Of a stretch of 64,000 bases of DNA, positions 3,642 through 53,084 are shown one piece after another; positions within the stretch are counted from its first letter, which is position 1, and each line of letters starts with the position of its first letter. Source of the stretch: Diplonema papillatum (Eukaryota; Euglenozoa; Diplonemea; Diplonemida; Diplonemidae); NCBI GenBank assembly GCA_030068145.1, contig JAPJBO010000335.1:124001-188000 (forward strand), given 5' to 3'. The notes under the pieces are model-generated. The model did not search any database. It was not told where the DNA came from and saw only the letters and a program-made list of their open reading frames with translations. Both the position numbers and the translations under genes were made by a program.

Positions 3642-3750
3642 AGGGAAAAAGTCTATTGGTGCTACTCAATGTATCATGCAGGGTCAAAACCTTGTGTCTT
3701 TTTTAAACGCTGCCGCGGGGCTGATGGACCCCCCAAAAAAAAAAAATGGA

Positions 3751-3860
3751 TTTTTGCGACAACCAATTTCTGCTTCCCTGGAGACAGTATTTGTTACAGC
3801 TAAAAAGAACGTTGGCAGCGGTTTAACCAAATCACATACAGGTTAAATCGCACAAACAAA
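3751..3860 (+). repeat. left direct repeat of the retroelement
   Basis: 110 bp identical to 7549-7658. Contains the R5 features: CTAAAAAGAAC, GTTGGCAGCGG, ACATACAGGTTAAAT and terminal CGCACAAACAAA. The gag start codon follows 17 bp later. Confidence 0.9.
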
Positions 3861-3877
3861 AAATATTGCTCGTGCAG

Positions 3878-4792
3878 ATGGCGATTGACCTGAAGGCTGT
3901 CGACTGGTCTCCCATCGAGGTCGTCCTTGCCCCCGACGGTTGGGAGGCCGCCGACGAGGACGTGGACTGCTGCGTCGACTGTGGAAAGACCCACAACTCG
4001 GGTGCCTTCTGCGCCCGGTGCGGCAAACGGGGGTTCCCGTCATGCCTGAAGGCATCCCTCCCGAAGGAGGTCGCGCCCCTGTTCCTCGAACACTTGTCCG
4101 AGGACGGCTGGGTCTGTCCCCAGTGCCTGGTGTCACTACACCTGGCCGGCAGCAGCCTAAAAGAAGAACAGAACGCGAGGGGGACCCGTGATCACGATCC
4201 GGCCGTCCCCCCGAGCTTGGACCCATGCTCCCTGCTCGCTGCTCTCGAAGAGGGGCCAGTCAAGACTGCCTTTCTTGCATTGTTTGCACAGTCTGCCATG
4301 CGGGCTCAGCTCGCTCCAGTGCCAGCCGCACCGGTCACTACCGAAGCGGTGGATCCTCGTCGAGTCACTACTTGGCTGGAAGGATTGGCGAGCGGACAGG
4401 GGCGACAGATGATTCTGTCGGAGGTTAAGGCACGGTACACGTACCACCTGGTGCCAGAGCACCCCCACGATGCGGGAAGCTCCCTGGATCATGAGCGGAG
4501 GATGCATTTCTCCACGCTCACGGCTCTGATGCCCCTGGCACACAGCTCCCCGCCTGTCCTCCAGGTTTTGCACCAGATCATGGTCCGCCTCGAAGCCCTT
4601 CGCCTTAAATGCCTCCACTCGAACGGCACTGAGTTCCAGGTTTCCTGGGAGACTCGCTTCGGGTCCATGGACTATGCCGACTTCACGAAGGCGGCCTTGA
4701 TCCAAGCCCAGAAGGCCATGGCCGAGCTGGCAAAAAAGGCAGACAACAAGGAGGAGAAGAAGGAGCCCTCCCTGAAGAGGCCTCGAAGGTGA
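3878..4792 (+). CDS. gag-like ORF1 of the retroelement, with zinc-binding cysteines
   Basis: 304 codons from the first ATG after the left direct repeat; the frame is open slightly further upstream. Near the N terminus is a cysteine set with PHD/RING-like spacing: C32-x2-C35, C45-x2-C48, C56, then C80-x2-C83. The middle has a helical, leucine-rich stretch. The C terminus is lysine-rich (KKADNKEEKKEPSLKRPRR). Its position as the first ORF of a recombinase retroelement indicates a structural, nucleic-acid-binding role. That role is inferred from position and charge, not from a recognised gag fold. The next ORF begins just after its stop. Confidence 0.6.
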   Translation: MAIDLKAVDWSPIEVVLAPDGWEAADEDVDCCVDCGKTHNSGAFCARCGKRGFPSCLKASLPKEVAPLFLEHLSEDGWVCPQCLVSLHLAGSSLKEEQNARGTRDHDPAVPPSLDPCSLLAALEEGPVKTAFLALFAQSAMRAQLAPVPAAPVTTEAVDPRRVTTWLEGLASGQGRQMILSEVKARYTYHLVPEHPHDAGSSLDHERRMHFSTLTALMPLAHSSPPVLQVLHQIMVRLEALRLKCLHSNGTEFQVSWETRFGSMDYADFTKAALIQAQKAMAELAKKADNKEEKKEPSLKRPRR

Positions 4793-4828
4793 GGGTCGGC
4801 GAGTCCCGCAGGCCTGCCTACCGCGGGT

Positions 4829-5749
4829 TTGTGGGCAGAGGTGGTAAAGAGGTCACTACCTCGGAAACAAGACTTCGGGTGTCCCGATCAAGATCGGTTC
4901 CGAAGGGATCAGGAGGCACTCCTCCTCGCCGTGCAGAAGTGCTACAAGAGCACCCCTGCCATGCTGTCAGTGGTGAGCCGCGCTCAGAGATACGCGGAGG
5001 AGGCCCGACGCTTTCGCCCCACGTTATCCGACGAGGAAGCCTTCCTGATGTGGGTGAATCGGAAGGTGACGGCTGGCGAGATCAAGGCCGAGTCGGCTCT
5101 CCAGTACGTGACCTACTTCCGGATGTCTCGGGTGAACTGGATGAGCGCATACCGGCGCTCGGTCAGGCTGACCATGGATCAGTTCGAGGACCGACGTACC
5201 CGCGATGCCGGGCGGACCCCATCCAAAGAGGAGGTCCTACAGGTGGTCTCACGAGGCCCCGGCTTGCATACCATGGCCCTCCGGTTCCAGTGGTCGACGG
5301 CGTGCCGGTTCGTGGACCTGCAACGGGTCCGGTTGGACCACATGTGGTCGGTGGACAAGCAACAGGTCATGATCCTGTTTGTCGGCGGGAAGACCGACCC
5401 GACGTCCCGAGGACAGGGTCTCTTACTGCCACGAAGCGGGGCTTTTCTGACGCCTTTTTGGGAATGGATCACCATCCAACGCCCTGCCAGCGGCCCCAAG
5501 GCGTTCGTGTTCCCCAACCTGTCAAGACAGGCTTACAACAGTTTCCTTCAAGAGGAGCTGGGGGTTCCTTCACACAGGATCAGACATGCCGCGCTGACTT
5601 GGGTGGCTTTTGTGGAAGGAGAGCAAGCAGCGATGTGCGTAGGTCGTCACCTCAACCCCAGGACGACGCGGCTGTACACGCCGCATCACCTTTGGCAGCC
5701 GGTCCAGCGGACAGTCCCGGGTACAGCTGCGCTGCAGAAAACCGACTGA
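4829..5749 (+). CDS. tyrosine recombinase of the retroelement
   Basis: A frame of about 306 codons. Its first ATG is at 4961, so it may start there or be reached by a frame change from ORF1. The C-terminal half has the catalytic layout of phage-integrase-type recombinases: an Arg in STACRFVDLQRVRLD, then HRIRHAALT (the HxxR box), then VGRHLNPRTTRLYTP with the box-II His and the nucleophile Tyr. The N-terminal half resembles the helical SAM-like DNA-binding domain of these enzymes (inference). It would integrate a circular cDNA by strand exchange, consistent with no target duplication beside the direct repeats. Its 3' end runs into the RT frame. Confidence 0.85.
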   Translation: MWAEVVKRSLPRKQDFGCPDQDRFRRDQEALLLAVQKCYKSTPAMLSVVSRAQRYAEEARRFRPTLSDEEAFLMWVNRKVTAGEIKAESALQYVTYFRMSRVNWMSAYRRSVRLTMDQFEDRRTRDAGRTPSKEEVLQVVSRGPGLHTMALRFQWSTACRFVDLQRVRLDHMWSVDKQQVMILFVGGKTDPTSRGQGLLLPRSGAFLTPFWEWITIQRPASGPKAFVFPNLSRQAYNSFLQEELGVPSHRIRHAALTWVAFVEGEQAAMCVGRHLNPRTTRLYTPHHLWQPVQRTVPGTAALQKTD

Positions 5750-7341
5750 ACCACCGCCCCGCTAAGCCTCCATTGTGGCCGCGCCACCTGGACAAGATCC
5801 TCCAGGGTTACGACTACGCCAACGGTTGGTTGGACGCCAGCAGTGGAAAGCGCGTAACGAAAGCATCCTATGAAGGTGAAATAGCTTCGACGGCTCCGCC
5901 CTTCAGTCACGAAGCGCTCTTGCACGATTTTCCCGCTCTCCGGACCAACATGCGATGGTTACTGGATTCCGAGTTCATCGGAAGCATGTTAAGACCGGGT
6001 TCGTTCGTATCCGGCCCTGGTCCGCGCAACTCACGAATGAGGCCGCACGTTGAGCGCTTGCTCGCGTTGAAGATCGCTGCGCCGGTCCCCAAGGCGGCTT
6101 CTTCCCGCTGGTTTCACGGCGCGTTTACGGTGGATAAACGGGCCCCCGGTCAGCTCCGGTTCATCCTCAGCTGCGAGTCAATCAACCGGGCCACGGCACA
6201 CGTGCCTTTGCCGCCCTGCGACCTACCCAGCTACGCCACCATCGTGAGTACGGTGCTGTCCCGCAAGTGGGTGGCTGAGTTCGACTTCCGCTCCTTTTTT
6301 TTCCAGTTTGCGCTGCCTCCAGAGGTCAGAAAGTATTTCTGTTTCCGTATTGAGGGCAGGCTGTTGTGGATGACGCGCCTGCCGATGGGCTACCGCGCTG
6401 CGCCTCAGGCGGCCCAGGCGGTCTCGCTGGAGCTTGCGGCTGCCGCCGCTCAGGGTGTGGACGTTGAGGTTCTCGCGTGGATCGATAACGTGATATTTGT
6501 GGCGGACACTGAGGCCGAAGTTATAGAGGCCTCAGCTCGCTTCAAGGCTTTGACTTCGAAGTACGGCTTGACCATCGGGAGCTGGTCCAAGCCTTCTACC
6601 CGGGCGGTGCTGCTGGGATTGGAAGTCGACCTCGCAGCGAAGAGATGGCGTGTGGACCCATCCTGGATAGGGAAGGCTGGACCGGTGATGGATCGCATCC
6701 GGGAGTGTAGTGAGGCTCCCGTCCGCGTGTGGTGGAAACTGACTGGGTCTCTGCTCTGGCGTCGCCACGTGATGGGGTACCCTCTCCACGAGGTACTTCT
6801 CCTCTTGCAGTGGATGTCAACCCTGGCTTCCGGCCGTTCGTCCACCGACAGCGCGTTCTGGGACTCCGTCGCGCCTTGCCCAGCTGCGGTCAAGAGCTGC
6901 CTCGTTGCCCAGTGCTCCGACATGCGGGGTAACGCCTGGCGGCAATGGTGTAAACCGGTTTACACTCGTTCGATCGATGTCGTCTCCGACGCCAGCATGT
7001 CGGCATGGGCCTTCGTGGCAGACGGGTCCCATGTCTACGGCGGTTTTCCTGCGGAGTTACTCCACGCGGACATCTTCATGAAGGAGCTATACGCCGTCGT
7101 TCGGGCCGTACAGCACGCGGTCCACGGCCAGTCGAGCGTGGACATCAACCTGCTGTGTGACAACAAGGCGGTGATAGGCTGCGTACGCCGCGGCTACACG
7201 CTTCGTCAGGATGCGATGCAGCTGCTAACTCTGATGAACAAGAGCTTGGCCTCATCCAGGAGCCGGCTGAATATCAGCTACGTCCCGTCGCTCCAGAACA
7301 TCGCGGATCAGTACACAAGACTAAATCGCCCGCAATGTTAG
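5750..7341 (+). CDS. reverse transcriptase and RNase H of the retroelement
   Basis: The frame is open from 4789, but its first ~320 codons overlap the recombinase in another frame, are rich in Arg/Gly/Pro, and look like a shadow. Homology begins after 5750. Reverse-transcriptase landmarks follow in order: GQLRFILSCESINRA, VAEFDFRSFFFQF (motif A), LPMGYRAAPQAAQ (motif B) and VLAWIDNVIFVAD (motif C). RNase H follows with IDVVSDASMSAWAFV, FMKELYAVVRAV and INLLCDNKAVIGCV, which give the expected order of acidic residues. A final NIADQYTRLNR resembles the end of DIRS-type RNase H. The product would copy element RNA into DNA. Confidence 0.85.
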
Positions 7342-7548
7342 CGCCCAACATCGACAGCCCACTTCGTCGAGTCCTCGTCAAGTGGGTCGGTTGGTTCTTC
7401 CTCCGTGTGGCATGCAGTTCATCATATCAGGCGAGCAACCGCCTTTTTGCTTAGTCTTCCGCCGGGTCCCATCCCGCGTCATCAGTCGCTCACGGTAGGA
7501 GGGGGGGGGGGTTCGAATAGGGGCCGCTCGTGCTCCGATGCCTGTTCT

Positions 7549-7658
7549 TTTTTGCGACAACCAATTTCTGCTTCCCTGGAGACAGTATTTGTTACAGCTA
7601 AAAAGAACGTTGGCAGCGGTTTAACCAAATCACATACAGGTTAAATCGCACAAACAAA
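7549..7658 (+). repeat. right direct repeat of the retroelement
   Basis: Identical to 3751-3860 over all 110 bp. Confidence 0.9.
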
Positions 7659-7759
7659 GGTAGCAACCGCGGTTGTCATTATCAAAAAGTGACGGTTGGC
7701 AGCGTACTGTGGAAATTACCATACAGGTGATAGCACATATGCACAAACAAAAATATGCT
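7659..7759 (+). repeat. extra R5-like repeat directly after the retroelement
   Basis: Contains GTTGGCAGCGTACTG, ACCATACAGGTGATAG and GCACAAACAAA, the same order as the element's end repeats but diverged. It may be an end of an older related insertion, or part of this element's own end structure. Confidence 0.6.
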
Positions 7760-7987
7760 AACTTCAGCAAAAATTACCGCAGTTTTTGTTCCAAAATTTT
7801 AAAATTCAAAAAATCCAAAAAAAAATTCCAGAAAGTAGTTGGTGGCCACTTACCAAAAAGACACAAGGTTTTGACCCTGCATGGTATAGGCATAGACCAG
7901 GGAGCTGTCTGCCAGCGAGTGTCTGTGCTGGGAACCTTTTCCTCCTGGGATCTCTCCAGCGGAAAGGCAGCGGTGCGGGCATCCTGG

Positions 7988-8457
7988 CTCAAGCACGAGT
8001 TAAAGTCTACCCCGATACAGTAAAGCTGCCTAACCTAGTCCCCCACTGACTACATGCACCCAAACTTCACAAAACAAACACAAGGTCGAACGACACCAAT
8101 CTGCACGTCCCACGGGATTGTCGGAAACACAAAAGACCGCACAAGAAGAAGTCGAACCTCGCACAATACAGTCAGCCGTCCCGGGAATGCCGTCCCTGCT
8201 GAACGGGTCGAGATCGTTGTGCACGAGGCGAGGGGCCTGCCGAAGACGGACAACCTCGGGTTCACGGAGGGGGACCCGCTGTGCATGGTGCAGGACAGCC
8301 AGAAGCGGGTCCTGCTGAAGACGAAGATCGTGCGGAAGACGACCGAACCGCAGTGGGAGGAGAGCGGGATCGTGAGCCTCGTGGAGTGCGGGTCGCTGAC
8401 CGTCCTGATCAAGGACAGCGACGCCACGTCCGAGGACCTGATGACCAAGGTCATCCT
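7988..8457 (+). pseudogene. broken tandem duplicate of the phospholipase D 5' region and C2 domain
   Basis: Repeats the promoter, leader and first ~95 codons found at 8459-8961, including CACTGACTACATGCACCC and the C2 stretch EARGLPKTDNLGFTEGDP. The start codon of the intact gene is ATA here, and 3 bp are missing next to the Asn-Gly codons. The copy stops at GTCATCCTG, where the upstream sequence of the second unit resumes (GCTCAAGCA). It has no catalytic domain. Microhomology CATCCTGGCTCAAGCA at the join suggests an unequal duplication. Confidence 0.85.
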
Positions 8458-8668: not shown

Positions 8669-11134
8669 ATGCAGTCAGCCGTCCCGGGAATGCCGCCCCT
8701 GCTGAACGGGTGCGTCGAGATCGTTTTGCACGAGGCGAGGGGCCTGCCGAAGACGGACAACCTCGGGTTCACGGAGGGGGACCCGCTGTGCATGGTGCAG
8801 GACAGCCAGAAGCGGGTCCTGCTGAAGACGAAGGTCGTGCGGAAGACGACCGAACCGCAGTGGGAGGAGAGCGGGATCGTGAGCCTCGTGGAGTGCGGGT
8901 CGCTGACCGTCCTGATCAAGGACAGCGACGCCACGTCCGAGGACCTGATGACCAAGGTCATCCTCAAAGCCGACGGGAAAACCCTCCGCCCGGTGCTCGA
9001 TGGTATCCCGGTCACCGGCTGGATCCCCATGGACAAGCAGAAGGCCGAAGTCCGCATCTCGATCAAACCGCTCATGCACCGCTGCCCAGGCAGACTCGGC
9101 GTGACCAATTCGCGGTTCCCTTCGAACCCGGGGTGCCGCGTGACGCTCTACCAAAGCGCGCACGTCGGAGGAGAACGGGATTACCTCCCCTACCTCAGCC
9201 AGTACAACGGCTGCGAAGGCCAAGGCATCGGCGCCAAAAAGCGGCATGTCGACCCCGAGCACGCGTTCGAAGCCGACGACGACGCGGAGGGCGCCAGGGC
9301 GTTTAACCCGAGGAACTGCTGGGAAGAGCTGTACGTCGCGATTCTAGAGGCGAGGCAGTTTATTTACGTGGTGGGGTGGTCTGTGTTCACGGACGTGCCC
9401 CTGCTCAGGGAGAGGGATGTGAAGGTGAAGGGGTATGAGGAGTTGGACGGGACGAAGGTGATTCTTGGGGATTTGTTCGCGATGAAGGCGCAGGAGGGCG
9501 TGAAGGTGTCCGTGATGCTGTGGAGGGAAGCGACGTCCGTCGGCAACGACTTCGCGTCGTCCGATGGCGTCGCCGGTACGTTCTCGGAGAAAACGAAGGC
9601 GTTCTTCCGCTCGAAAGAGCCACCCCACGTCCACTGCAAGACGTTCCTCCGGCAGTCCGAGAGCTCGATGACCCTCAACAAGCTCTGCTACACGCACCAC
9701 CAAAAATACGTCGTCTGCGACGCGCCCGCACTCTCCGACTCCCGCAAGCCGCGGCGCCTCATCGGGTTCATTGGCGGGATCGATCTCACTAAGGGACGGT
9801 TCGACACGCCTAAAAAGCACCTCTGGGGAACGGCGGACGGCTGGCACAAGGGGGATTGGTACCAGGCGTGCGTCCCGGGCGTTGACGAGATCGACGGCAA
9901 GGAGCAGGGCTGTAGGCAGCCGTGGGCGGACATCCACGCGAAGATCGAAGGTCCGGTGGTGAGGGATTTGATCACGAACTTCGAGGACCGGTGGCTGAAG
10001 CAGGCTGGGGAGAAGTGGAGCCACGCGCTGTTCGATGTGGACGAGTGCGACGAAATCCTGCCGCGGGAGGAGGACTATGTTCAGGACCCGGACTTCCACG
10101 AGTCTTGGAACGTGCAGTTCCTTCGGTCCATCGACCACAATTCGGCGCTCAACATCCTCGGCGTTGAAGGCGGCATCCACAACGCGTATGACTTGGCCAT
10201 CGAGCGAGCCGAGCGGTTCTTGTACTTGGAGAACCAGTACTTCATGGGCGGCAGCAAGAGCTGGAAGAGCCACAAGGGGGCGAACATCCTGAGCAACCTC
10301 ACCTCGCTTCTCGCCCGCGAGGAGGTGCAGTCCATCAACCGGATCCCGCTGATGATCGTCAACAGGATCGGGCGAGCCATCCGCGAGAACAAGCGGTTCT
10401 CGGCCTACATCTGCATCCCCATGTTCCCCGAAGGCCTGCCCGAGTCGGCAGCCATGCAGGAGATCATCTACTGGCAGTACAACACCATGGAGATGATGTA
10501 CTCGCTCATCGCTCAAATCATCAAAAACACGAGCACGCAAGCGTCCCCCGAGGACTACCTCAATTTCTTCTGCCTCGGCAACAGGGAGCCCGAGGGCCCG
10601 CTGGCGGGCATGGGCACCACGAGCGCCCGGAAGGACGTCATCAACAACACGAGGAGACACATGATATACGTCCACTCGAAGATGCTGATCGCGGACGACG
10701 ACTACATCATCCTGGGGTCCGCGAACATCAACGACCGATCCATGGCCGGCGACAGGGACACAGAAGTCGCGATCGGGGCCTACCAGCCCCACCACTCCCG
10801 CGCGAATGGCGTGAAGTTCGCGAATGGGGGGGTGCAGGCCTTCCGCCTGTCGGTATGGGGTGAGCACCTCAACGAGGGCGGAACCGTCAACTCCGCGTTG
10901 TACTACCCGGAGTCGAAGGCGTGCGTCGACTACGTCAACACGAAGTCGTACAAGGCGTGGAAGGACCACGCGGGCGATCTCGTCCAGAAGCAGGAGTGCC
11001 ACCTGATGAAGTACCCCATCGTCGTGAACCCCGACGGCTCCATCCGCCCCATCCAAGAGTGCTTCCCGGATGCCCCGGCTGCAAAGATCCGCGGTGTCGA
11101 GTCCGCCACTATTCCGGATTTCATGACTTCCTGA
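8669..11134 (+). CDS. phospholipase D, C2-type (plant PLD-alpha-like)
   Basis: An intronless gene of 821 codons, close to the ~810 of plant C2-PLDs. PLD hydrolyses phosphatidylcholine and related lipids to phosphatidic acid and a free head group. The N-terminal C2 domain (about residues 10-135; EIVLHEARGLPKTDN near its start) would bind membranes with Ca2+. Two HKD motifs are present: H344-x-K346-x4-D351 in THHQKYVVCD, and H669-x-K671-x4-D676 in YVHSKMLIADD followed by ILGSANINDRSM. The stretch LYLENQYFMGGS is also typical of the family. No signal peptide or membrane span is seen. The start is the first ATG after the leader and matches the start of the C2 domain. Partial copies of both ends flank the gene. 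Confidence 0.95.
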   Translation: MQSAVPGMPPLLNGCVEIVLHEARGLPKTDNLGFTEGDPLCMVQDSQKRVLLKTKVVRKTTEPQWEESGIVSLVECGSLTVLIKDSDATSEDLMTKVILKADGKTLRPVLDGIPVTGWIPMDKQKAEVRISIKPLMHRCPGRLGVTNSRFPSNPGCRVTLYQSAHVGGERDYLPYLSQYNGCEGQGIGAKKRHVDPEHAFEADDDAEGARAFNPRNCWEELYVAILEARQFIYVVGWSVFTDVPLLRERDVKVKGYEELDGTKVILGDLFAMKAQEGVKVSVMLWREATSVGNDFASSDGVAGTFSEKTKAFFRSKEPPHVHCKTFLRQSESSMTLNKLCYTHHQKYVVCDAPALSDSRKPRRLIGFIGGIDLTKGRFDTPKKHLWGTADGWHKGDWYQACVPGVDEIDGKEQGCRQPWADIHAKIEGPVVRDLITNFEDRWLKQAGEKWSHALFDVDECDEILPREEDYVQDPDFHESWNVQFLRSIDHNSALNILGVEGGIHNAYDLAIERAERFLYLENQYFMGGSKSWKSHKGANILSNLTSLLAREEVQSINRIPLMIVNRIGRAIRENKRFSAYICIPMFPEGLPESAAMQEIIYWQYNTMEMMYSLIAQIIKNTSTQASPEDYLNFFCLGNREPEGPLAGMGTTSARKDVINNTRRHMIYVHSKMLIADDDYIILGSANINDRSMAGDRDTEVAIGAYQPHHSRANGVKFANGGVQAFRLSVWGEHLNEGGTVNSALYYPESKACVDYVNTKSYKAWKDHAGDLVQKQECHLMKYPIVVNPDGSIRPIQECFPDAPAAKIRGVESATIPDFMTS

Positions 11135-11436: not shown

Positions 11437-11718
11437 GTATGGGGTGAGCACCTCAACGAGGGCAGAACCGTCAACTCCGCGTTGTACTACCCGGAGTCGA
11501 AGGCGTGCGCCGACTACGTCAACACGAAGTCGTACAAGGCGTGGAAGGACCACGCGGGCGATATCGTCCAGAAGCAGGAGTGCCACCTGATGAAGTACCC
11601 CATCGTCGTGAACCCCGACGGCTCCATCCACCCCATCCAAGAATGCTTCCCGGATGCTCCCGGCGCGAATATCCGCGGTGTCGAGTCGGCCACCATTCCG
11701 GATTTCATGACCTCCTAA
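11437..11718 (+). pseudogene. PLD 3' end duplicate 1
   Basis: Copy of 10853-11134 (last ~94 codons: WGEHLNEG to PDFMTS and the stop). Still open in frame and nearly identical, with a few substitutions. It has no HKD motif, so it cannot encode an active lipase. It has no obvious promoter. Confidence 0.85.
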
Positions 11719-12021
11719 GCACACGCCGCATGAGAGTCGCATTCTCGTCTCAGCTTCACGTCTAGATTTTGTCAAGACGAGAACATCGTAAGGCGACTCT
11801 ATTGGAGAACGAGTCGTATCCTGACGAGAGTTTGCCCCGGATATCAGAAAAGGAGGTTGGATGAGAATATGACTCTGAGGAAATCGCTGTGCTGGCGCCG
11901 GTGTTTTGTCGTCCAGTTTATTTGTCGCAGTCTGCGAATGTATGGCGTCGTGCACGAGACACCTGAACACTGAAACAAGCAAAGAGCCCGCTTCCCATGG
12001 GTCAATACGGCTCTCCCTATC

Positions 12022-14317: not shown

Positions 14318-14390
14318 CCCCCCCCCCCCCCCCCCCGTGAATTACTTTTTACCCCCGACACGTACTTTCCACCCCCCGAAAAACGGGGGG

Positions 14391-14985
14391 TAAAGAGTAT
14401 AAATCCGGGGGTATAGAGTATAAATCGGGGGGTATAGAGTATAAATCGGGGGGTATAAATCGATGTCGGGGGGTGGAAATTGTTGTCGGGGGGTGGAAAG
14501 TACTTTTCGGGGGGGTGGAAAGTACTTTTCGGGGGGTGGAAAGTACTTTTCGGGGGGTGGAAATTTTTGTCGGGGGGTGGAAAGTATTTTTCGGGGGGTG
14601 GAAAGTACTTGTCGGGGGGTGGAAATCTTTTGTCGGGGGGCGGAAAGTATTTATCGGGGGGTGGAAACGTTTCGTCGGGGGGTGGAAAGTACTTTTCGGG
14701 GGGTGGAAATTTTTGGTCGGGGGGTGGAAAGTACTTTTCGGGGGGTGGAAAGTACTTTCGGGGGGTGGAAAGTACTTTCGGGGAATGGAAAGTACTTTCG
14801 GGGGGTGGAAAGTACTTTCGGGGGGTGGAAAGTACTTTCGGGGGGTGGAAAGTACTTTCGGGGGGTGGAAAGTACTTTCGGGGGGTGGAAAGTACTTTCG
14901 GGGGGTGGAAAGTACTTTCGGGGGGTGGAAAGTACTTTCGGGATTTTCGGGGTGGAAAGTACTTTCCGGGGGGTGGATTGTTTTC
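14391..14985. repeat. 21/20-bp satellite: GAAAGTACTTTTC plus G-run, array 1
   Basis: About 27 units of GTGGAAAGTACTTTTCGGGG type. Each joins a palindrome (perfect in the 20-bp form, GAAAGTACTTTC) to a run of six G. From 14743 on the 20-bp form dominates. Some units replace the palindrome with ATTTTTGTC. Confidence 0.95.
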
Positions 14986-15009
14986 TGGAGCGCGGCGGGA
15001 CACTGTACT

Positions 15010-15650
15010 TGCACACACGAGAATCGACCCGCAAACCCGCGAACCCGCATATCCGTTCCCGCAAACCCGCATACCCGAACCTGCAAACCCGCAAACCCAA
15101 ACCCGCATAACCAAACCCGCATACCCGCGTACCCAAACCCGCAAACCCGAACCCGCATACCCGTTCTCGCAAACCCGCATACCCGTTCCCGCAAACCCGC
15201 AAACCCAAACCCGCATACCCAAACCCGCAAACCCGCGTACCCAAACCCGCAAACCCGCATACCCGAACCCGCATACCCGTTCTCGCAAACCCGCATACCC
15301 GTTCCCGCAAACCCGCATACCCGAACCTGCAAACCCGCAAACCCAAACCCGCATACCCGCATACCCGCAAACCCGCAAACCCGCATACCCGAACCCGCAT
15401 ACCCGTTCCCGCAAACCCGCATACCCGTTCCCGCAAACCCGCATACCCGTTCCCGCATACCCGAACCTGCAAACCCGCAAACCCAAACCCGCATACCCAA
15501 ACCCGCATACCCGCGTACCTAAACCCGCAACCCGCATACCCGAACCCGCATACCCGCAAACCCGCAAACCCGCATACCCGCAAACCCGCAAACCCGCAAA
15601 CCCGGAATCGCAAACGCGCAAACCCCGCATACCCGCAAGCCCGCAGACCT
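15010..15650. repeat. CCCGCAT / CCCGCAA heptamer-octamer satellite
   Basis: Roughly 640 bp of ACCCGCAT, ACCCGCAA, ACCCGAAC, ACCCGTTC and ACCTGCAA words, with higher-order blocks about 70-140 bp long. It resembles degenerate telomere-like repeats but matches no known telomere unit. Confidence 0.9.
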
Positions 15651-16094
15651 GCAGATTGTGGCTGGAACTGTTTTTGGAAATACACACAGCAAATCAAAGA
15701 AAGGGGGGAAAGGTGGAAAATGCAGATCAAACGGGAGTAAAACGTGTACACGCTTATCCGACTCTTGACTTACTATGCCGTGTTCTGAAAGCTGTCGAGG
15801 GGCCCCTCCATAGGTTCTCGCATGATTCGTTCGCCTTCGTAACACTATCCGTTTGTAGTACGCTTCGCAATTGTGTTCTTGCAATATCTAGCCGAATGGC
15901 GGGTGGCGGATTTCCGCGCTCGTGCGCAAGACACAATTATGCTGCTTTTGCAGTGCAAGCCGAACCCGGTTCGCGACTTCGGTTGCGGTAAAGTGTTACA
16001 AAGTCTTCGGCTTTCAGATCCGGATACGCCTTATGCAACATGATAGTTAGAGGTCACTTGAAGGATACCGTGTGCAGCGTTCGAAAGAGTTTGC
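15651..16094. other. unique core between the two satellite arrays
   Basis: About 440 bp of non-repetitive sequence inside the bounded block. No convincing ORF or RNA gene was found. Confidence 0.4.
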
Positions 16095-16099
16095 GTATC

Positions 16100-16520
16100 T
16101 GGTCGGGGGGTGGAAAGTAGTTTTCGGGGGGTGGAAAGTACTTTTCGGGGGGTGGAAATTTTTTTGTCCGGGGGTGGAAAGTACTTTTTGGGGGGTGGAA
16201 ATTTTTTGTCCGGGGGTGGAAAGTACTTTTCGGGGGGTGGAAAGTGTTTTTCGGGGGGTGGAAAGTACTTTTCGGGGGGTGGAAATTTTTCGTCGGGGGG
16301 TGGAAAGTACTTTTCGGGGGGTGGAAATTTTTGTCGGGGGGTGGAAAGTATTTTTCGGGGGGTGGAAAGTACTTTTCGGGGGGTGGAAATTTTTGTTCGG
16401 GGGGTGGAAAGTACTTTTCGGGGGGTGGAAAGTACTTTTCGGGGGGTGGAAAGTACTTTTCGGGGGGTGGAAAGTACTTTTCGGGGGGTGGAAAGTACTT
16501 TCGGGGGGTGGAAAGTACGT
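16100..16520. repeat. 21-bp palindrome plus G-run satellite, array 2
   Basis: About 20 units of the same repeat as array 1 and in the same orientation, again with interspersed ATTTTTGTC variants. Confidence 0.95.
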
Positions 16521-16560
16521 GTCGGGGGTGTTGAGTACATCACCCCCCCCCCCCCCCCCC

Positions 16561-17132
16561 TTTTTTTTTTTTGGGAAGCAGGCGTTGTTCTGATTCCGAA
16601 GAATTCGAGAAAGATCGGCGAAAACAAATCCGCGTATGGCCAGCGTCCTTCTTGTTCGCCCCCAGCTGCGCGAGCTTTTTTGGCTGAAAGAGGCAGCCGT
16701 TCAAGGTCTTTGCTGCTCTTTACTTGTCAAGGCAGCTTTTGTCTTGTACAAGCAGTATGTGCCTTGCGTGCAGCAGAAGGCCTACACCAGAGCCATCCAG
16801 CTAGCGTCTTGTGGGGGGAGCCGAGGGCCGCGGTTGGTCACAATGCCATGATGTCCTGGCCCGTGCCGTTGAACGAACGTCTTCTTTGTCTCATTTCCAC
16901 CCCCCTGGAGGCTGTTGTGACCGCGCTTGTTGCAAGCACCGCTTGTTGCAAACCCCCGTTTCCTTCTTCTTCCCGCGCTGTGACCCCTGCCGGTCTGTTT
17001 GCGCGTGGGCTCGCACACTCCTAGCCTGTGCACAGCCCAGTCGTGGTCAAGAAGACCTCTTCTTTCCATCCATCCCCGCACACACACAACAAAAATAAAG
17101 GAAGAAGCAGCAAAGCCAAACCACCTTTTCGG
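16561..17132. other. no gene seen
   Basis: Starts with a T run, then mixed sequence. Short overlapping ORFs on both strands without recognisable domains. Confidence 0.4.
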
Positions 17133-17322
17133 TTTTTGTGTTAACAATGCATTGTTGGTACTAAAAATTAGCAGTTGGCAGCGTACTACATGAAACTTAC
17201 CAAAGCAGGTGAGTTCCGCTAGTGCGCACAAACAAAAAGGGAAACGCAAGATGCCCGCACCCACCAAGGAGAATCTGGACTTGACCCAGTGGGGTGAAGT
17301 GGAAAGACGTCCCCGTACCTGA
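17133..17322 (+). mobile_element. R5 leader plus start of a retroelement-type ORF (5' remnant)
   Basis: The leader begins TTTTTGTGTTAACAATGCAT with the palindrome AACAATGCATTGTT, then GTTGGCAGCGTACTAC, ACCAAAGCAGGTGAG and GCGCACAAACAAA. An ATG follows at 17251, with a peptide sharing the pattern PT-basic-acidic-x-LDLT with the copy at 50551. Its family assignment rests on similarity to the retroelement leader at 3751. It is a fragment. Confidence 0.6.
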
Positions 17323-24200: not shown

Positions 24201-26905
24201 CAGCACCAACGGCCGCAGCGCCGCCGGCAGCCCGGACCGCATGGGCGACTACCCGCTCATCTTCTGGCCCGGGCTGCAGTCCGCGCAGCCGGCGCAGGCG
24301 GCTCCAAGCCCGGCGGCCCGCGCGTCGTACGACCACGCCGCCTCGCCTCTGTACCACCGCATCCTCGCCATGTACGACATGTACAACCCCACCAAAATAC
24401 ACACCGTCGATGCTCTCGTTGAGAAGTATGCCCCTCCCACCAAAGTTGGCACCTTGCACGTCTTTCTTTTGTACATGCAGTCACTCTGTAGTGGGGCGAC
24501 CGGATACTCCCCGGAGAGATGGTCCCTGCACTCTAACTCGTCTCTCTCTCTCTTTCACTCTTTATCAAGCACCTGCTTTGTGTGATTTAGACTCCAGCAG
24601 CAAACAAGCTTTTTTTTGTTGAACGCTTACGGGTTGGGTGGGCGGGGAACTCTTTGTATGTGAGTGCAAGTCTTTTCTGCGAAGGTGTTCCTGGGCGGTC
24701 GTAGAGGTTGACTAATCGACGACAAAAGAAAGCTTGATTTTCTTTCCACTTGCTGTAACAGCTATGTGTGGGAAGATGGAGACCTCTTTTATTATCGGGG
24801 TCAACTCCACACCTTGGCGCGTGAGCTGGTCTGGGCCGCTCATCTTCTGGCCCGGGCTGCAGTCCGCGCAGCCGGCGCAGGCGGCTCCAAGCCCTGCGGC
24901 CCGCGCGTCGTACGACCACGCTGCCTCGCCTCTGTACCTCCGTCTGGGTTTCATCCAGTACTCTGCTTGTCTTAGTCGTCTGTACGTAGTTGTGCTTCCG
25001 ACACCACTTCCGAGCCCATTCTGTGCTAAGTTGTGAGATTACATGACTGGCAACCCAGTAGTTCGGGTGACGGTCGCGCGCGCACGAGCGAGTAAGTGAC
25101 AGCGGTCCCGTTCGTTCGTTTTTCGCTCGATCAGTTCTAAAAGGATCACGGTCTCCTTTTTTCTTAATGACAATAGACGGCCTCTCTTGGCCTTTTGTTC
25201 GTCAACGTCGATCGGTTCACCCCGACTTCCGCCTAGAGCGTGCGCAATGGAGTTAGTTTTTCCCGTACAGCGTACGAGCGCGAGTGGTCGTTGCACGCGA
25301 AACCTTCTTTTTGCCTGGCATCCTCGCCATGTACGGCATGGACAACCCCACCAAAATACACACCGTCGATGCTCTCGTTGAGAAGTATGCCCCTCCCACC
25401 AAAAGTTGGCACCTTGCACGTCTTTCTTTTGTACACGCAGTAACTCTGTAGTGGGGCGACCGGATACTCCCCGGAGGGATGGTCCCTGCACTCTAACTCG
25501 TCTCTCTCTCTCCCACTCTTTATCAAGCACCTGCTTTGTGCGATTTAGACTAGCAGCAAACAAGCTTTTTTTTGTTGAACGCTTACGGGTTGGGTGGGCG
25601 GGGAACTCTTTGTATGTGAGTACAAGTCTTTTCTGCGAAGGTGTTCCTGGGCGGTCGTAGAGGTTGACTAATCGATGACAAAAGAAAGCTTGATTTTCTT
25701 TCCACTTGCTGTAACGGCTATGTGTGGGAAGATGGAGACCTCCTTTGTTATCGGGGTCAACTCCACACCTTGGCGCGTGAGCTGGTCTGGGCCGCTCATC
25801 TTCTGGCCCGGGCTATGTACGACATGTACAACCCCACCAAAATACACACCGTCGATGCTCTCGTTGAGAAGTATGCCCCTCCCACCAAAAGTTGGCACCT
25901 TGCACGTCTTTCTTTTGTACATGCAGTCACTCTGTAGTGGGGCGACCGGATACTCCCCGGAGAGATGGTCCCTGCACTCTAACTCGTCTCTCTCTCTCTC
26001 TCACTCTTTATCAACACCTGCTTTGTGTGATTTAGATTAGCAGCAAGCAAGCTTTTTTTTGTTGAACACTTACGGGTTGGGTGGGCGGGGAACTCTTTGT
26101 ATGTGAGTGCAAGTCTTCTTTGCGAAGGTGTTCCTGGGCGGTCGTAGAGGTTGACTAATCGATGACAAAAGAAAGCTTGATTTTCTTTTTGAAAGTATGC
26201 CAATACTGCAGGGAATAGTTGACTAGACCTCTTGAGTTTGTGCTATCCACGAATTGGGGAGTCGGGAGAACCTACAAAGCCAAAAGCAGGACCGACTCCC
26301 CCGTTCGTGAGAAAAAGCGAAGAAGAAAAACATTGTTTTTTCGCAGTTTGCGTTGACCAGCATCCCAACAAGCAGATACGGCGAAGAGGCGCTCCTGAAG
26401 ACGTTGGTTGACAAATACGGCGCGGAGCCCGACGCTGCCCTGCAGCCGCACTTCGACAGCACGTATGCCTTTCTTCTTCCTTGAGCAGTTAGGCTCTTTC
26501 CCAACGCAGTTTATTGACACACGTGCATGAACTGCAATGTGCTTTTCACCGCTGTCCTGTCTGCAGACACTCCGCGCTGATGGTCCACTTTATGTGCTGC
26601 GGTGATTTTTGATGAAGTTGAGCAAATTCTTTTTTTTCCCCAAATTTTTTCTTGGTGGGCCATCGGTCCCGCGGCAGCGTTTTACCAAAAAGACACAAGG
26701 TTTTGACCCTGCATGTTACCATTTCCTTATCCCTCGAACACCAGCACCAATACCAACGTCCCCCCCGCCACACAGAGCCCATTCGGTGCACCTCTCTCCG
26801 GTCGGATCACCGGCAGCCAGCCCTGTTCCAGCCAGCCCCGTCGCCGCCAGCCCTATCGCATCCAGCCCCCCGGGGAGCCCGAATTACCCGCCGTTCGTGC
26901 AGTAG
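18270..26905 (+). CDS. membrane-protein family member 1: propeller-like ectodomain, stalk, one TM, cytoplasmic tail
   Basis: Four exons: 18270-18969, 23339-24425, 26361-26462, 26776-26905. They total 2019 nt, or 672 codons plus stop. Donors are GT (GTACCC, GTATGC, GTATGC) and acceptors AG; phases are 1, 2, 2, exactly as in member 2. Residues 1-22 are a signal peptide (MWRRLPVVLLPLLLLPAATV). Exon 1 has NCGMAVDMTRRLVIWSEGYY and GMRLLGLVINPATESVYVS, which look like YWTD/SMP30-type propeller blades. Exon 2 has a Pro/Thr/Ser-rich stalk, a membrane span near residues 411-436 (VTLLVICLTLVALCLAGGLI) and a basic, Ser-rich tail. Exon 3 encodes RYGEEALLKTLVDKYG and exon 4 a Ser-Pro repeat tail ending PPFVQ. 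A surface receptor or adhesin is plausible. The function is not recognised. Confidence 0.85.
19440..19520. repeat. GGGGGGCTTCGCCCCCC hairpin in intron 1
   Basis: A perfect G6/C6 hairpin with a CTTCG loop at about 19475-19492. Followed by repeated TTCGCCCGAACTTTGC phrases at 19550-19620. Similar GGGGGGCGGTGCCCCCC hairpins are at 40020 and 40160. Confidence 0.6.
20194..21330. mobile_element. TIR element carrying a captured ubiquitin-protease fragment
   Basis: Perfect 32-nt inverted ends: TACCTACCCCCCCCCGTGAA at 20194 and TTCACGGGGGGGGGTAGGTA ending at 21330. Inside each end is a second motif, TTGAGTATGTCACCCCCC (20237 and 21262). The 1.14 kb interior holds a USP fragment. It is inserted in intron 1 of member 1. 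No target duplication is clear. No transposase is encoded, so it would be non-autonomous. Confidence 0.8.
20515..20790 (+). pseudogene. ubiquitin-specific protease (USP/UBP) fragment
   Basis: Encodes the USP cysteine box GIQNLGNSCYLGAILQFL and, after a shift of frame near 20590, CMPEKFQGNAQQDASELL, the QQDA box. Intact USPs cleave ubiquitin from proteins using this Cys together with a His box ~250 residues later. The His box is absent here. The two boxes lie at the usual spacing, so this is a piece of the first catalytic subdomain. It lies wholly inside the TIR element at 20194-21330, which suggests capture of a host gene fragment. The open frame 20972-21265 after it is not recognised. Confidence 0.85.
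21441..21735 (+). mobile_element. R2 inverted-repeat element
   Basis: Near full-length (~295 bp): CTTTTTTACATAAGCG at the left, CAGCTACGTCGAGT at the right, followed by a T run. Located in intron 1 of member 1. Confidence 0.8.
21919..22446 (+). repeat. R11 repeat, two tandem copies
   Basis: Units at about 21919-22196 and 22206-22446 share GTCGTATAAGA at the start, the phrase GACAAACACACCGAA / GACAAATACACGAAG, and CGCAGTAGGAGAA at the end. A third copy lies at 46545-46778. Confidence 0.65.
22559..22715 (-). mobile_element. R1 element, reverse copy truncated at the pseudo-exon
   Basis: AAATACTTGAGGAGACTGCC at the left; matches other R1 copies to TCTCCCTCTAGCCTCC, where the duplicated exon sequence begins. 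Confidence 0.65.
22722..23140 (+). pseudogene. duplicate of member 1 exon 2 inside intron 1
   Basis: Repeats exon 2 from GTCGTCCTCGGGTCCAACAC through the Pro-rich stalk into the membrane span, corresponding to 23514-23945. Several small deletions break the frame, and it lacks the exon's acceptor. A degenerate partial duplication of the neighbouring exon. Confidence 0.85.
24426..26190 (+). repeat. tandem partial copies of exon 2 end plus intron 2
   Basis: The block ATGTACGACATGTACAACCC...donor...CTCTGTAGTGGGGCGACC...CTTGATTTTCTTTCC occurs three times, beginning near 24369, 25329 and 25815. Each copy keeps the last coding segment (KIHTVDALVEKYAPP frame) and its GTATGC donor. 24838-24945 also repeats exon 2 sequence from 24256-24350. 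Confidence 0.85.
25030..25315. other. unrelated insertion between tandem copies
   Basis: About 285 bp that is absent from the other tandem copies. No coding or element signature was recognised. Confidence 0.45.
26595..26710 (-). mobile_element. R4 element, truncated reverse copy in intron 3
   Basis: Ends CAAGGTTTTGACCCTGCATG at 26710. Inside, it matches the R4 copy at 42553 in reverse orientation (GATGAAGTTGAGCAAA). The other end is missing. The intact copy in member 2 also lies in intron 3. Confidence 0.7.
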
Positions 26906-32310: not shown

Positions 32311-32715
32311 CGTAGTACCACCACGTGGTACCACAGGTACTGCAGGTAGTGTGTAGGTAACTACGTAGTACCCCGTAGTACCACAGGTACTGCAGGTAGT
32401 GTGTAGGTAACTACGTAGTACCCCGTAGTACCACAGGTACTGCAGGTAGTGTGTAGGTAACTACGTAGTACCCCGTAGTACCACAGGTACTACAGGTAGT
32501 GTGTAGGTAACTACGTAGTACCCCGTAGTACCACAGGTACTGCAGGTAGTGTGTAGGTAACTACGTAGTACCCCGTAGTACCACAGGTACTGCAGGTAGT
32601 GTGTCGGTAACTACGTAGTACCCCGTAGTACCACAGGTACTACAGGTAGTGTGTAGGTAACTACGTAGTACCCCGTAGTACCACAGGTACTACAGGGTAC
32701 TCTGTAGGTAGTATG
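32311..32715. repeat. 50-bp minisatellite, about 7 units
   Basis: TGCAGGTAGTGTGTAGGTAA recurs every 50 bp (32341, 32391, 32441, and on to 32641). The unit is built of GTAC-centred palindromes such as CTACGTAGTACC. Edge units are degraded. Confidence 0.95.
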
Positions 32716-34472: not shown

Positions 34473-35013
34473 TGCGTTGGCCCCTCGCACGGGACGAGGT
34501 TCCTCCAGCCTGACACTTGCTGCCGCTGAGGGGGAGAGCCAACCCGAGGAACGTCCGCCGGCGGAACAAAAAAATAGCAGAACCACCACCCAAAGGAAGG
34601 GTAAAAAGGTCGAAAGACACCAGCCTGCACATCAACCTCGAATTGATTGTCGGCAACACAAGGAAGACTCTGCCACAAGGAATCAACCGCCACCTGGGCA
34701 GCAAGAAAAACGAAAGTCATCAGTCAGTTAGTCGTACTTCAAGCAACCGTAGTGTGGGGGGACTCCCTGCGTAGGAAAACCGGCCACCCATTTCATCGGG
34801 AAAAAGTTTGTTTCGGGGGAGTCCATTTCTCAAGGGACAATCTGCAAAACCCGGGTGGAAAGAAAAAATACCTTTTTGAGGTCTGCCGCGTCACCTGACT
34901 TTTGTGCGGCCGAAAGAGCTGCACTGGGGAAGGTTTCGTCAAGGCAGGGACTGGATGGATTGTGGCCTCTAAGCCAGAGCCAGTCTAGAGGAATGCGTGA
35001 GGTACGCAGGGCA
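34473..35013. other. no gene seen
   Basis: Contains GGTCGAAAGACACCAGCCTG-type sequence near 34608, a diverged relative of the leader phrase before the PLD gene (8086, 8565). No coding region is supported. Confidence 0.4.
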
Positions 35014-35393
35014 CTTCGGATTTATCGGGCCAATACTAGCTTCGGCGAACGGCAACTTCCGGATTTATCGGGCCAATACTAGCTTCGGCGAACAGCAACT
35101 TCCGGATTTATCGGGCCAATAATAGCTTCGGCGAACAGCAACTTCCGGATTTATCGGGCCAATACTAGCTTCGGCGAACAGCAACTTCCGGATTTATCGG
35201 GCCAATACTAGCTTCGGCGAACAGCAACTTCCGGATTTATCGGGCCAATACTAGCTTCGGCGAACAGCAACTTCCGGATTTATCGGGCCAATACTAGCTT
35301 CGGCGAACAGCAACTTCCGGATTTATCTAGCTTCGGCGAACAGCAACTTCCGGATTTATCGGGCCAATACTAGCTTCGGCGAACGGCAATTTC
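35014..35393. repeat. 43-bp minisatellite, about 9 units
   Basis: GGATTTATCGGGCCAATACT plus AGCTTCGGCGAACAGCAACT recurs every 43 bp from 35018. One unit near 35318 lacks 12 bp. Units are almost identical, so the array is young. Confidence 0.95.
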
Positions 35394-35558
35394 CGAGGTC
35401 ACATCCCAGATCCCGATGGGCGCAACGTACTGAGGTGCCTTGTTGTTTCCGGCTTCATAACGCTGCGTTTCAAGAAGTTCCGCACGTCAACGTGGATCGC
35501 GGACTCCAGGTTCCGCGAGAGGAACGCGTGCCGGTGAGGTGAAAAGATGGCGTTTTCA

Positions 35559-41000: not shown

Positions 41001-43044
41001 ATCACCGCTCTCCTGCAGGAGCAGCGTCGGCAGAACCAGGCGAGCCAGGAGGCGATGGAGAGGGCCATCGAGATGCAGGCAACGAAGGAGGCGGCGCCGC
41101 TGCCCCCGCAGCAGGTCGACTCGCCCCGAAGGGTCTCTTTAGCGGAGATCCCATCGCCAGGACACATGGTATCGGGGGATCATGTCCTCAATGAGTCAGG
41201 ATCGCCCATGGCGTCTCCGAGAGCATCGCCCCGTGGGCTGGCGCCGAGCGAGCTGAACATGAGCATTCCTAACTTCAGCGTAACGGGGAGCATGTCCGGG
41301 AGTCCGGGGCTCGACCGGACGAACATGAGCGACTATCCCCTCGTCTTCTGGCCCGGGCTGCAGTCCGCGCAGGCGGCGCAGATGGCCACCAACTCGGGCC
41401 GCGTGACGCAGGACCACAGCAACTCGCCCCTCTACCAGCGCATCGTCGCCATGTACGAGACCCACAACCCCGGAAAAATGCACACCGTCGACGCACTCGT
41501 CAACAAGTACGCTCCCCTCCCGTTTTACACTTTTTTTCGAAGAAGACTTGATGCTAGCATCAAACATGAATGAGAGGCGGTGCCTGCCTAAACATAAACT
41601 AAGATTTTCTCCCAAAGGACCCAATGATGAGCATCGGTCTGCGTTCACGAGAGCGAAACCCGAAACGAGGTGCACACAACACCGCGGTGAATAAGAAGAA
41701 GGAAGACTGGTTCCTCAAGGGTTCATACCCTACCTGCGATGTCTTACACTAAAGAGGAGTAGTGCGGCCAACGAAAACTCTAGTTTTCCGTTGACAGATT
41801 CCGTGTCCGTGGCTTGAAGGACCGAAGCACGGCGCAGATAGCACACGATCGGTTTCCAAGCACCATCCAAATACCAACTATCAGGTACGGCGGTGTGTTG
41901 CCTCAGCACTTCCGTATCACCACCACTCCAAGCACCATCCAAATACCAACTATCAGGTACGGCGAAGACGCGCTTCTCAAGACGCTGGTCGACAAATACG
42001 GCCCGGAACCCACGGACGGCTCCGCACTTCGCACGCACTTCGACAGCTCGTATGCTTCCCTTCCCTGGCTACTTCTATTCACCCTACGCCGCATCCACCC
42101 ACCTCACACCCGAAGCACCTCCTTAAGCGCGTCAGAGGACCTTGCTATCCGGGGCTCACGACGTGAGTGAGAAATCACGACACACACGGTAGTGTCCAAC
42201 CCTCTGAAGCTGGAGGTTAAAAAAACGGGGCTTGCACGTTTGCTTTTCGGGTGTGCAATTGCGCGCGGTGTGGGTGTACTATTCCACCTGCTTTTCGGGT
42301 GTGGCTGGGGCAACCGCATCCTCTGTCTGTATCTCCAGCTTCCGAGGCCGTGCGCGACCACAACTCCTTTTTGTCGAACGTTACCCGGAGACTCTCAAAA
42401 CTTGGAGTTTCACGCGAACCTTCAAAGAATTGCTTGTCGGAGATGCTCGAGATGGCAACACCAGCTGCGAAATTGTGAAATGTGCAAGTTTGCGGTGGTC
42501 TGCACTGTACATACGCTTATTCACACGTTTACTCACTTCATTTGATGTTTAACATGCAGGGTCAAAACCTGTGTCTTTTTGGTAAACGCTGCCGCGGGGC
42601 CGACAGAGCCCAAGAAAAACATTTGGATTATTTTTTTTTGCTCAACTTCATCAAAAAATACCGCAGCATTTGTTCCAAATTTATTTTTTTCAAAAACCCA
42701 ATTTTTTTTCCAGAAAAAATGGGTGGCCATTTTTTTTGGGGTCTAAATCCCTCATACCAAAAATACACAAGGTTTTGACCCTGCATGTTAAGCAGACGGA
42801 ACAAAGCCTCTCACGCGCGCTTGGTGCTAGCATCAAGTCGTCTACGCCCGGCGATGCACCTATATTTACCTCCTCTCGTTCCTCAAAGCCAGAGCCAATT
42901 CCGACGATCCTCCCCGCCTGTGCGTACGCGGACATCAAATGCACCTTGCACAGATCTCGCTCTGTTCACCTGTCGCCGATGGGATCACCGGCAGGCAGTC
43001 CCATGGGGAGCCCAAGAGGAGATTTCCCGCAGCTGGTGCAGTAG
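38029..43044 (+). CDS. membrane-protein family member 2: propeller-like ectodomain, stalk, one TM, cytoplasmic tail
   Basis: Exons 38029-38716, 40303-41506, 41933-42049 and 42954-43044 total 2100 nt (699 codons plus stop), with phases 1, 2, 2. Donors are GTATGC, GTACGC and GTATGC; acceptors are AACACAACAG, CACTCCAAG and CCTTGCACAG. Signal peptide residues 1-20 (MLRELTLVVLLLPAATVGTI). The ectodomain matches member 1 (CGMAVDATRRLAIWSEGYYD). A Pro/Thr-rich stalk precedes the membrane span near residues 417-441 (VTILIICLTLVALCVAGAGA). A coiled-coil-like QEQRRQNQASQEAMERAIEM and a Ser-rich tail follow; exon 4 ends FPQLVQ. The paired exon lengths and phases confirm the model. Introns hold R5b, R1, R9, R4, R7 and R12 elements. 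Function unknown; a cell-surface role is inferred. Confidence 0.87.
38956..39078. mobile_element. GTGAGCCGG-type MITE, copy 1
   Basis: Ends TGAGCCGGTCCATCCC and GGGACGGACCGGCTCA. It contains GATAGACCGTGATAGACCG. Related copy 52119-52300 has a 5-bp target duplication. Partial relatives are near 43995, 49590 and 52860. Confidence 0.8.
39094..39312 (+). mobile_element. R1 element inserted in R5b
   Basis: Starts AAATACTCGAGGGGCTGCC; the inverted arm GGCAGCCTCCTCAAGTATTT ends at 39285. A tail CTACAAAGCAGGTGCTTATA continues to the R5b junction. TATACA flanks both sides (target-duplication-like). Confidence 0.8.
39518..39768 (-). repeat. R9 dispersed repeat, copy 2
   Basis: Same sequence as 29331-29590. 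Preceded by an A/G-rich run. In intron 1 of member 2. Confidence 0.75.
39995..40190. repeat. paired GGGGGGCGGTGCCCCCC hairpins
   Basis: CATGTACCATACCGTCTCCC plus a hairpin of the form GGGGGCGGTGCCCCC occurs at about 39997 and again at 40138, ~140 bp apart. Confidence 0.65.
41524..41615 (+). repeat. R12 dispersed repeat, copy 1 (intron 2 of member 2)
   Basis: GAAGACTTGATGCTAGCATC (palindrome TTGATGCTAGCATCAA) and GCCTGCCTAAACATAAACTA. A second copy is 47253-47345, with fragments near 32165, 42810, 50860 and 51065. Confidence 0.7.
41861..41932 (+). repeat. duplicated start of exon 3 in member 2
   Basis: CCAAGCACCATCCAAATACC to ATCAGGTACGGCG occurs at 41856-41892 and again at 41928-41964. Only the second continues into the open exon. 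The first provides a possible decoy acceptor. Confidence 0.75.
42187..42348. mobile_element. R7 element, decayed copy in intron 3
   Basis: CTCTGAAGCTGGAGGTTAAA at the left and TCTCCAGCTTCCGAGGC at the right, with CTTTTCGGGTGTG inside as in other copies. Confidence 0.65.
42553..42787 (+). mobile_element. R4 inverted-repeat element, uninterrupted copy
   Basis: 235 bp. Ends CATGCAGGGTCAAAACC and GGTTTTGACCCTGCATG, flanked on both sides by TTAA. Together with the GTAT flanks at 3671/7884 this gives a 4-bp duplication of varying sequence. Non-coding. Confidence 0.88.
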
Positions 43045-50433: not shown

Positions 50434-50620
50434 ATTTTTGTGTTAACAATGCATTGTTGGTACTAAAAATTAGTAGTTGGCAGCGTACTAAAAGCAACTC
50501 ACCAAATCAGGTGAAAAGCCGCTAGTGCGCACAAACAAAAAGAACACAAAATGGCTATTCCCACCAGAGACGACCTCGACTTAACGCGGCAGACTCGCAC
50601 AAACAAACGGAAGCGCCATA
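50434..50620 (+). mobile_element. R5 leader plus start of a retroelement-type ORF (5' remnant)
   Basis: Leader closely matching 17133-17250 (TTAACAATGCATTGTTGG, GTTGGCAGCGTACTA, CACCAAATCAGGTGAA, GCGCACAAACAAA). An ATG at 50551 opens a peptide MAIPTRDDLDLT, like the one at 17251. A fragment of the same element family. Confidence 0.6.
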
Positions 50621-52648: not shown

Positions 52649-53084
52649 TACAAGAAATAAATGGTGATGCGTTTGCCCCCTCCCATGAATGATGTGGTTT
52701 TTCCGGTCGCAGAGTCAAATGTCGTGTCTGTCTGATATCTTGTCCGCAAGAAAAGTACCGGGGTTCTTCGCTCAGGAGGCGGATCGGGAGAGAACCGGTG
52801 TGCTGGCCCATCCCCTGATAGACCGCAGTATCCGCGAACGATACACCCTGTACCCGATACGGATGAATGAGCCGGGGCCACCCGAATCCCCCCTGCTGAT
52901 AATCTGTGTATAGACTGCTGACAGCTGCGATAGGCAGGGATTCGATGCACTTCCAGGAAGTAGGGGTGATGAGGCCGTGGCGTAACGCGATAGCCAGGTC
53001 CGCCCTCTGGAAACTGCATCGCGTTGCCTAGGCGCCAGGGTTACCGCGTTCGCCACACTTTTGGGGGGCTCGATGGCGGATTCT

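Follow-up and report, generated by a model that had tools for sequence, protein, structure and literature searches.

A tyrosine recombinase retrotransposon family of VIPER-like layout in Diplonema papillatum, with candidate signals for decoding one mRNA in three ways

What kind of retroelement carries its recombinase gene ahead of its reverse transcriptase, how would the products of its overlapping frames be made, and how does it insert? These questions are raised by positions 3751-7658 of a 64,000-nt stretch of the Diplonema papillatum assembly GCA_030068145.1 (contig JAPJBO010000335.1, positions 124,001 to 188,000, hereafter the window, numbered from its first letter). The order reported by the first-pass annotation is real: a gag-like open-reading frame (ORF1) is followed by a tyrosine recombinase (YR) and then by reverse transcriptase-RNase H (RT-RNase H). 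So are its direct terminal repeats, two identical 110-bp units that flank the three ORFs. We consider it probable that the element belongs to a YR retrotransposon family of VIPER-like layout in which one mRNA is decoded in three ways and the YR integrates the element at T-runs. Its features are as follows.

3751..3860, + strand, left terminal repeat A1, TTTTT then GCGACAACC...CGCACAAACAAA, 110/110 identical to 7549-7658
3878..4792, + strand, ORF1, gag-like, 304 aa, with a PHD-like cysteine pattern, ending in TGA
4633..7341, + strand, open -1 frame encoding RT-RNase H and spanning beneath the entire YR ORF
4732..4738, + strand, A_AAA_AAG heptamer in ORF1 phase, putative -1 frameshift site
4790..4792, + strand, UGA separating ORF1 from YR in one frame, putative readthrough stop
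4793..5749, + strand, YR ORF, 318 codons plus stop, catalytic codons starting at 5306 (R), 5390 (K), 5573 (H), 5582 (R), 5648 (H) and 5675 (Y)
5749..7341, + strand, RT-RNase H, with the RT motif WIDN instead of YxDD at 6478-6489 and RNase H from ~6967
7524..7553, + strand, B1, CCGCTCGTGCTCCGATGCCTGTTC plus TTTTTT, immediately 5' of the GCGAC of A2
7549..7658, + strand, right terminal repeat A2
7659..7753, + strand, repeat remnant at the B2 place, ~68% like part of A and similar to window repeats resembling the 5' ends of other YR families

The R-K-H-R-H-Y catalytic set of the YR is complete and its predicted fold is Cre/Xer-like (structure model, mean predicted local distance difference test score, pLDDT, 73.3); the window YR sequence had no significant match in Pfam or the PDB. 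The RT matches RVT_1 in Pfam and, in the PDB, the Moloney murine leukaemia virus RT (1mml, E 9.4e-8), whilst the RNase H has a weak RVT_3 match with the D-E-D-D residues present, and no sensible PDB match when that domain was searched alone. The RT structure model (mean pLDDT 35.3) was not used. In ORF1 the Pfam match to PHD reached E 0.26 only, below the cutoff, none of the three ORFs matched a methyltransferase in Pfam (E up to 1), and PHROGs and NCBIfam searches gave no match.

The layout recurs in the D. papillatum assembly (271,365,524 bases searched), which holds at least 83 RT matches (81 of 2682 candidates scored), clustering near 100, 91, 90, 85 and 71% identity. A divergent 101-aa query found at least 150 matches (150 of 1571 candidates scored), including the families of the window element (46-48% identical to the query) and others. 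In every one of the 25 copies retrieved complete or almost complete, a match to ORF1 precedes YR and YR precedes RT, with the catalytic residues kept; a different ORF order in other copies, which the first-pass annotation had named as grounds against its claim, was found neither in these 25 nor in five of five further loci (L067, L069, L070, L072, L073). ORF1 is partial or broken in several of the 25 (L021, L030, L036, L037, L044, L045), and extra fragments of related elements lie within L037, L043 and L045; in L037 these are tandem partial elements, with several ORF1 and A copies 5' of one complete element. More distant families share the layout, their YR being 37-41% and their RT 42-45% identical to those of the window, and ORF1 28-29% (L072, L073).

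A genome search with the 110-bp repeat gave 1395 candidate places; the 40 that were scored are each 99-100% identical. Contigs with no RT match hold 21 of these 40, and six of the 21 were read: two continue into ORF1, three are solo repeats whose following 120 nt contain no other part of the element, and one is a miniature (L077) made of A, a ~34-nt leader, B and T6. One of the solo repeats (L074) has a T-run at its left and 16 A after it, an arrangement that resembles the insertion of a short RNA. The near-identity of the copies indicates that the family has been recently mobile.

The evidence on decoding comes from the arrangement of the frames. In 15/15 copies analysed (of 26), ORF1 and YR form one frame split by a single TGA, the RT lies at -1 in a frame already open ahead of the ORF1 stop, and 49-58 nt 5' of the TGA stands an in-phase A_AAA_AAG; in L072, L073 and L067 there is again a TGA in the same frame before the YR, with RT at -1. 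Among seven family representatives, with RTs 42-100% identical to that of the window, all have an in-phase XXXYYYZ heptamer in the ORF1/RT overlap: A_AAA_AAG in five, A_AAA_AAC in L072 and G_GGA_AAC in L067. We call canonical those heptamers that stand on the general list of frameshift sites. Under synonymous recoding, the chance of a heptamer of canonical type is 2.8-14.5% in each representative, with a product of 9e-9, for which the effective number is nearer four than seven because four of the seven are close relatives. A-ending codons make up 10% of codons and AAA 25 of 141 Lys codons; in the 90 and 91% families alanine is replaced by serine, but the final A that the heptamer needs is retained (TCA for GCA).

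The RT frame is also open where it runs across the YR. In the window it has 0 stops there, against 6.3 +- 2.1 in synonymous shuffles (3/2000 as low, and 0/2000 in a run with another seed), whilst the same kind of shuffling revealed no stop depletion for ORF1, RT or the gene next to the element at 8669-11131. All seven representatives have 0 stops in this stretch, and between families 0 stops compare with 5.3-8.4 expected (probability of 0 at or below 0.01). Of five comparisons of residue identity in the RT frame across the YR, three gave values at the null. As the frame is open, with a sequence little or no more conserved than chance, openness itself seems to be selected.

On the side of the UGA, the first in-frame ATG of the YR comes at codon 53-79 past the UGA in five of the seven representatives, and the preceding stretch can be aligned between families, with a third-position excess between the window and L041 (25/27/55%). 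The available L067 sequence covers 58 codons before the TGA, all of them open. In its family mate L069 this frame reaches back to a VRLEALR stretch shared with the window ORF1, whilst a BLASTP search with the short L067 piece alone was not significant. From the UGA in a shared frame, the in-phase heptamers and the open RT frame, we infer readthrough for the YR and a -1 frameshift for the RT. Most ribosomes would stop at the gag UGA, some would read through it in frame to give gag-YR, and others would slip -1 on the heptamer and translate ~340 codons beneath the YR, giving a gag-spacer-RT-RNase H product, the spacer being little constrained in its amino acids but required to stay open. The RT would then make cDNA, and the YR may use the T6 of the B|A junction to recombine this cDNA with T-runs in the genome. 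We judge the chances to be about even that these elements represent a diplonemid clade in which one gag stop region feeds both UGA readthrough and a -1 frameshift beneath the YR, which would be a new retroelement expression strategy; among the matches listed in literature searches, no title pointed to a ribosomal frameshift or readthrough of this kind in YR elements. The conserved heptamer, the UGA and the open overlap make the three-way decoding model directly testable, and genetic tools are reported for D. papillatum.

Several observations count against this model. In the remaining two of the five comparisons, those with the close relatives L038 and L032, RT-frame identity across the YR was slightly above the null, at a level reached by 2.8% of simulations. 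Two representatives, L044 and L041, have an ATG already at codons 11 and 17, and codons 12-55 before the ATG show no third-position excess between the window and L038 (14/16/16%). No stable or clearly covarying RNA structure was found 3' of the heptamer (z 0.90; covariation term 0.06), and the nucleotides 3' of the UGA differ between families, with no fixed readthrough context. The RT motif is WIDN rather than YxDD, its second Asp replaced, in 25/25 copies and also in the distant L067 and L070. At the ends of the element, exact B2 is absent at 37 of 38 right ends with A2, and one copy (L039) has a perfect 34-bp target duplication, not expected from a YR. The missing RNA structure would suit an alternative in which YR and RT each have an mRNA of their own, processed by spliced leader (SL) trans-splicing or cis-splicing, so that the overlap is compact packing. 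The accessible text of PMC10161547 describes introns and has spliced leader among its abbreviations, and public gene models start the YR at an internal ATG (P0001, P0002) or fuse YR to RT (P0007); we nevertheless hold separate mRNAs to be improbable, since they leave unexplained the open RT frame under the YR, the in-phase heptamers and the TGA, each present in seven of seven representatives.

The model of YR integration at T-runs draws on the ends of the copies. A T-run of at least 5 precedes the left end in 31/31 read (25 longer copies including the window, and six short ones; L030, which is without a left end, is not counted). Families with TTTTAT at their internal B1|A2 junction have a pure T left end nonetheless, therefore the left T-run was not copied from that junction. 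Right ends were examined at 46 places (the window, 25 copies and 20 more), at 38 of which there is an A2 end. Directly after A2, 27 of the 38 have unrelated or target DNA, and six (L030, L037, L047, L050, L058, L065) continue for at least 9 nt with the sequence that follows A1. L023 has exact B plus T6 (31/31), L022 a diverged B, and the window copy and L027 a repeat resembling A of other families, whilst L039 combines its target duplication with a shortened A2. Eight places have no complete A2 end (L031, L034, L035, L051, L052, L054, L059, L060), and L055 and L056 share a flank and may be one locus. The right end of the miniature L077 likewise carries B, with 28 nt exact, and B1 is nearly identical in the 71% family. 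In most copies the repeats thus do not form the standard A-B-A-B, and copies ending at A2 probably arose by a different or an unfinished insertion route; these mixed right ends bear on the integration mode of YR retroelements.

The remnant at 7659-7753 was first read as the B repeat of the element, a reading dropped after comparison with the other copies. Repeats like the 3' half of A (GTTGGCAGCG...CACAAACAAA) lie elsewhere in the window at 17150-17240, 50454-50541 and 53084-53160; at 17163-17238 the repeat is followed by ATG and an ORF1-like start, and these are probably 5' ends of other YR families.

The window copy lies within a short terminal inverted repeat (TIR) element, an uninterrupted paralogue of which provides an empty site.

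3672..3703, + strand, left TIR of the short TIR element hosting the window copy
7855..7886, + strand, right TIR of the same hosting element
42550..42790, + strand, uninterrupted paralogue of the hosting TIR element (empty site)

Compared with this paralogue, the target resumes just past the T-run, and there is no target duplication at the window copy; empty sites for L026 and L044 were looked for and not found. This bears on a further alternative, that A1...A2 copies were inserted at T-runs by target-primed reverse transcription and not by the recombinase. Such a route would account for T-run left ends with variable right ends, for the one 34-bp target duplication in L039 and for the solo A followed by A16 in L074. 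It fits poorly with the window empty site, with the poly-T at the 5' end of the coding strand and with the B|T6 right ends of L023 and L077, and also with the flanks of the other copies outside tandem-repeat targets (L021 and L036 being left out for that reason), which share 4-8 nt, against a maximum of 7-10 nt, once 30, in different-copy controls (8 vs 7 for L024). We regard target-primed insertion as possible but doubtful. The hosting element is like a miniature inverted-repeat transposable element, with 32-nt TIRs and further members in the window at 42550-42790 and 26597-26719, and L023 also appears to be inserted in a member of the same TIR family.

To which group, then, does the element belong? 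By layout it is VIPER-like. In the accessible text of PMC6681497 and PMC12278014, VIPER and TATE are kinetoplastid VIPER-like YR retrotransposons, and the Diplonema element has in common with them the order gag-like, YR, RT/RNase H, overlapping YR and RT ORFs, an A repeat at both ends, no methyltransferase match and hosts in Euglenozoa, and probably also a usual lack of target duplication. It differs in that A1-B1-A2-B2 is not standard, in a B of only ~30 bp and in the PHD-like cysteine pattern of ORF1, its conserved UGA and heptamer may be further differences, and it is likened to them by layout, not by sequence. DIRS1-like elements (PMC3266345) resemble it in that many have a YR/pol ORF overlap and many have T-rich termini, and probably also in integrating at a short stretch of identical sequence that is left unduplicated, but the Diplonema element has another gene order and no methyltransferase match. 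The element was found to have direct terminal repeats only, with neither inverted ones nor an internal complementary region, and the 32-nt inverted pair around it belongs to the hosting TIR element.

In Ngaro elements the YR is the last gene. Ngaro-like elements (the available parts of PMC3783388 and PMC4157794) share with the Diplonema element a YR with RT/RNase H, direct repeats and the lack of a methyltransferase, but its YR does not follow RT/RNase H, and A-B-A-B is incomplete in most of its copies. It could therefore be asked whether a Ngaro- or PAT-type element had its YR gene moved to the middle, with no relation to VIPER/TATE. According to the part of PMC4157794 available, structural features have arisen repeatedly among YR elements, and no kinetoplastid-named protein was among our matches; set against this are a central YR in every copy and family sampled, no methyltransferase match and a host phylum that is that of VIPER/TATE hosts, and such an origin seems to us rather unlikely. 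Because structural features alone are homoplasious (PMC4157794), the element is placed with VIPER/TATE by layout and only possibly by descent, and a distinct lineage of YR retroelements, as the first-pass annotation had suggested, is plausible from the protein searches. What the copies establish is that recombinase-first YR retroelements of the known VIPER/TATE-like layout, complete and near-identical, are present in a diplonemid; if they are related to VIPER/TATE by descent, the group predates the split between diplonemids and kinetoplastids, which are sister groups.

The setting had been called unexpected. It is less foreign than was claimed, because D. papillatum (Euglenozoa, Diplonemea) belongs to the phylum of the kinetoplastids and TATE-like ORFs had already been noted in it: the accessible text of PMC10161547 reports more than 60 D. 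papillatum ORFs with a likeness to DNA-transposon proteins, TATE, MULE and Helitron among them, and its main text never uses the terms DIRS, VIPER or Ngaro. A full-text literature search on diplonemid TATE transposons found PMC10161547 alone, and no title among the matches listed pointed to other work on diplonemid retroelements. In protein searches the YR ORF was 99% identical to D. papillatum DIPPA_19293 and 76-84% to further D. papillatum proteins, and the RT 85-100% to D. papillatum entries that bear the annotation aspartic protease or Pol polyprotein. These searches returned four RT proteins (one of them the window's own) and five, then ten, YR proteins, the best ~8000 candidates being scored in the RT search and in one YR search; apart from D. 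papillatum proteins, the matches comprised one EukProt transcript protein and ENA proteins without a name, and none bore a kinetoplastid name. Relatives sought in viral_contigs and genome_contigs gave pattern-matching stretches, none confirmed by tblastn; the available part of PMC6681497 mentions contaminant hits in bacterial assemblies.

Downstream of the element, the window holds an 821-aa ORF at 8669-11134, phospholipase-D-like by eye alone, with a near-identical partial duplication at each end (8207-8457 and 11437-11736; 251 nt at 99% and 300 nt at 95%). Tandem-repeat arrays with units of 8 to ~160 nt lie at 14380-16611, 32320-32710, 35013-35395, 55143-55802 and 59066-59477.

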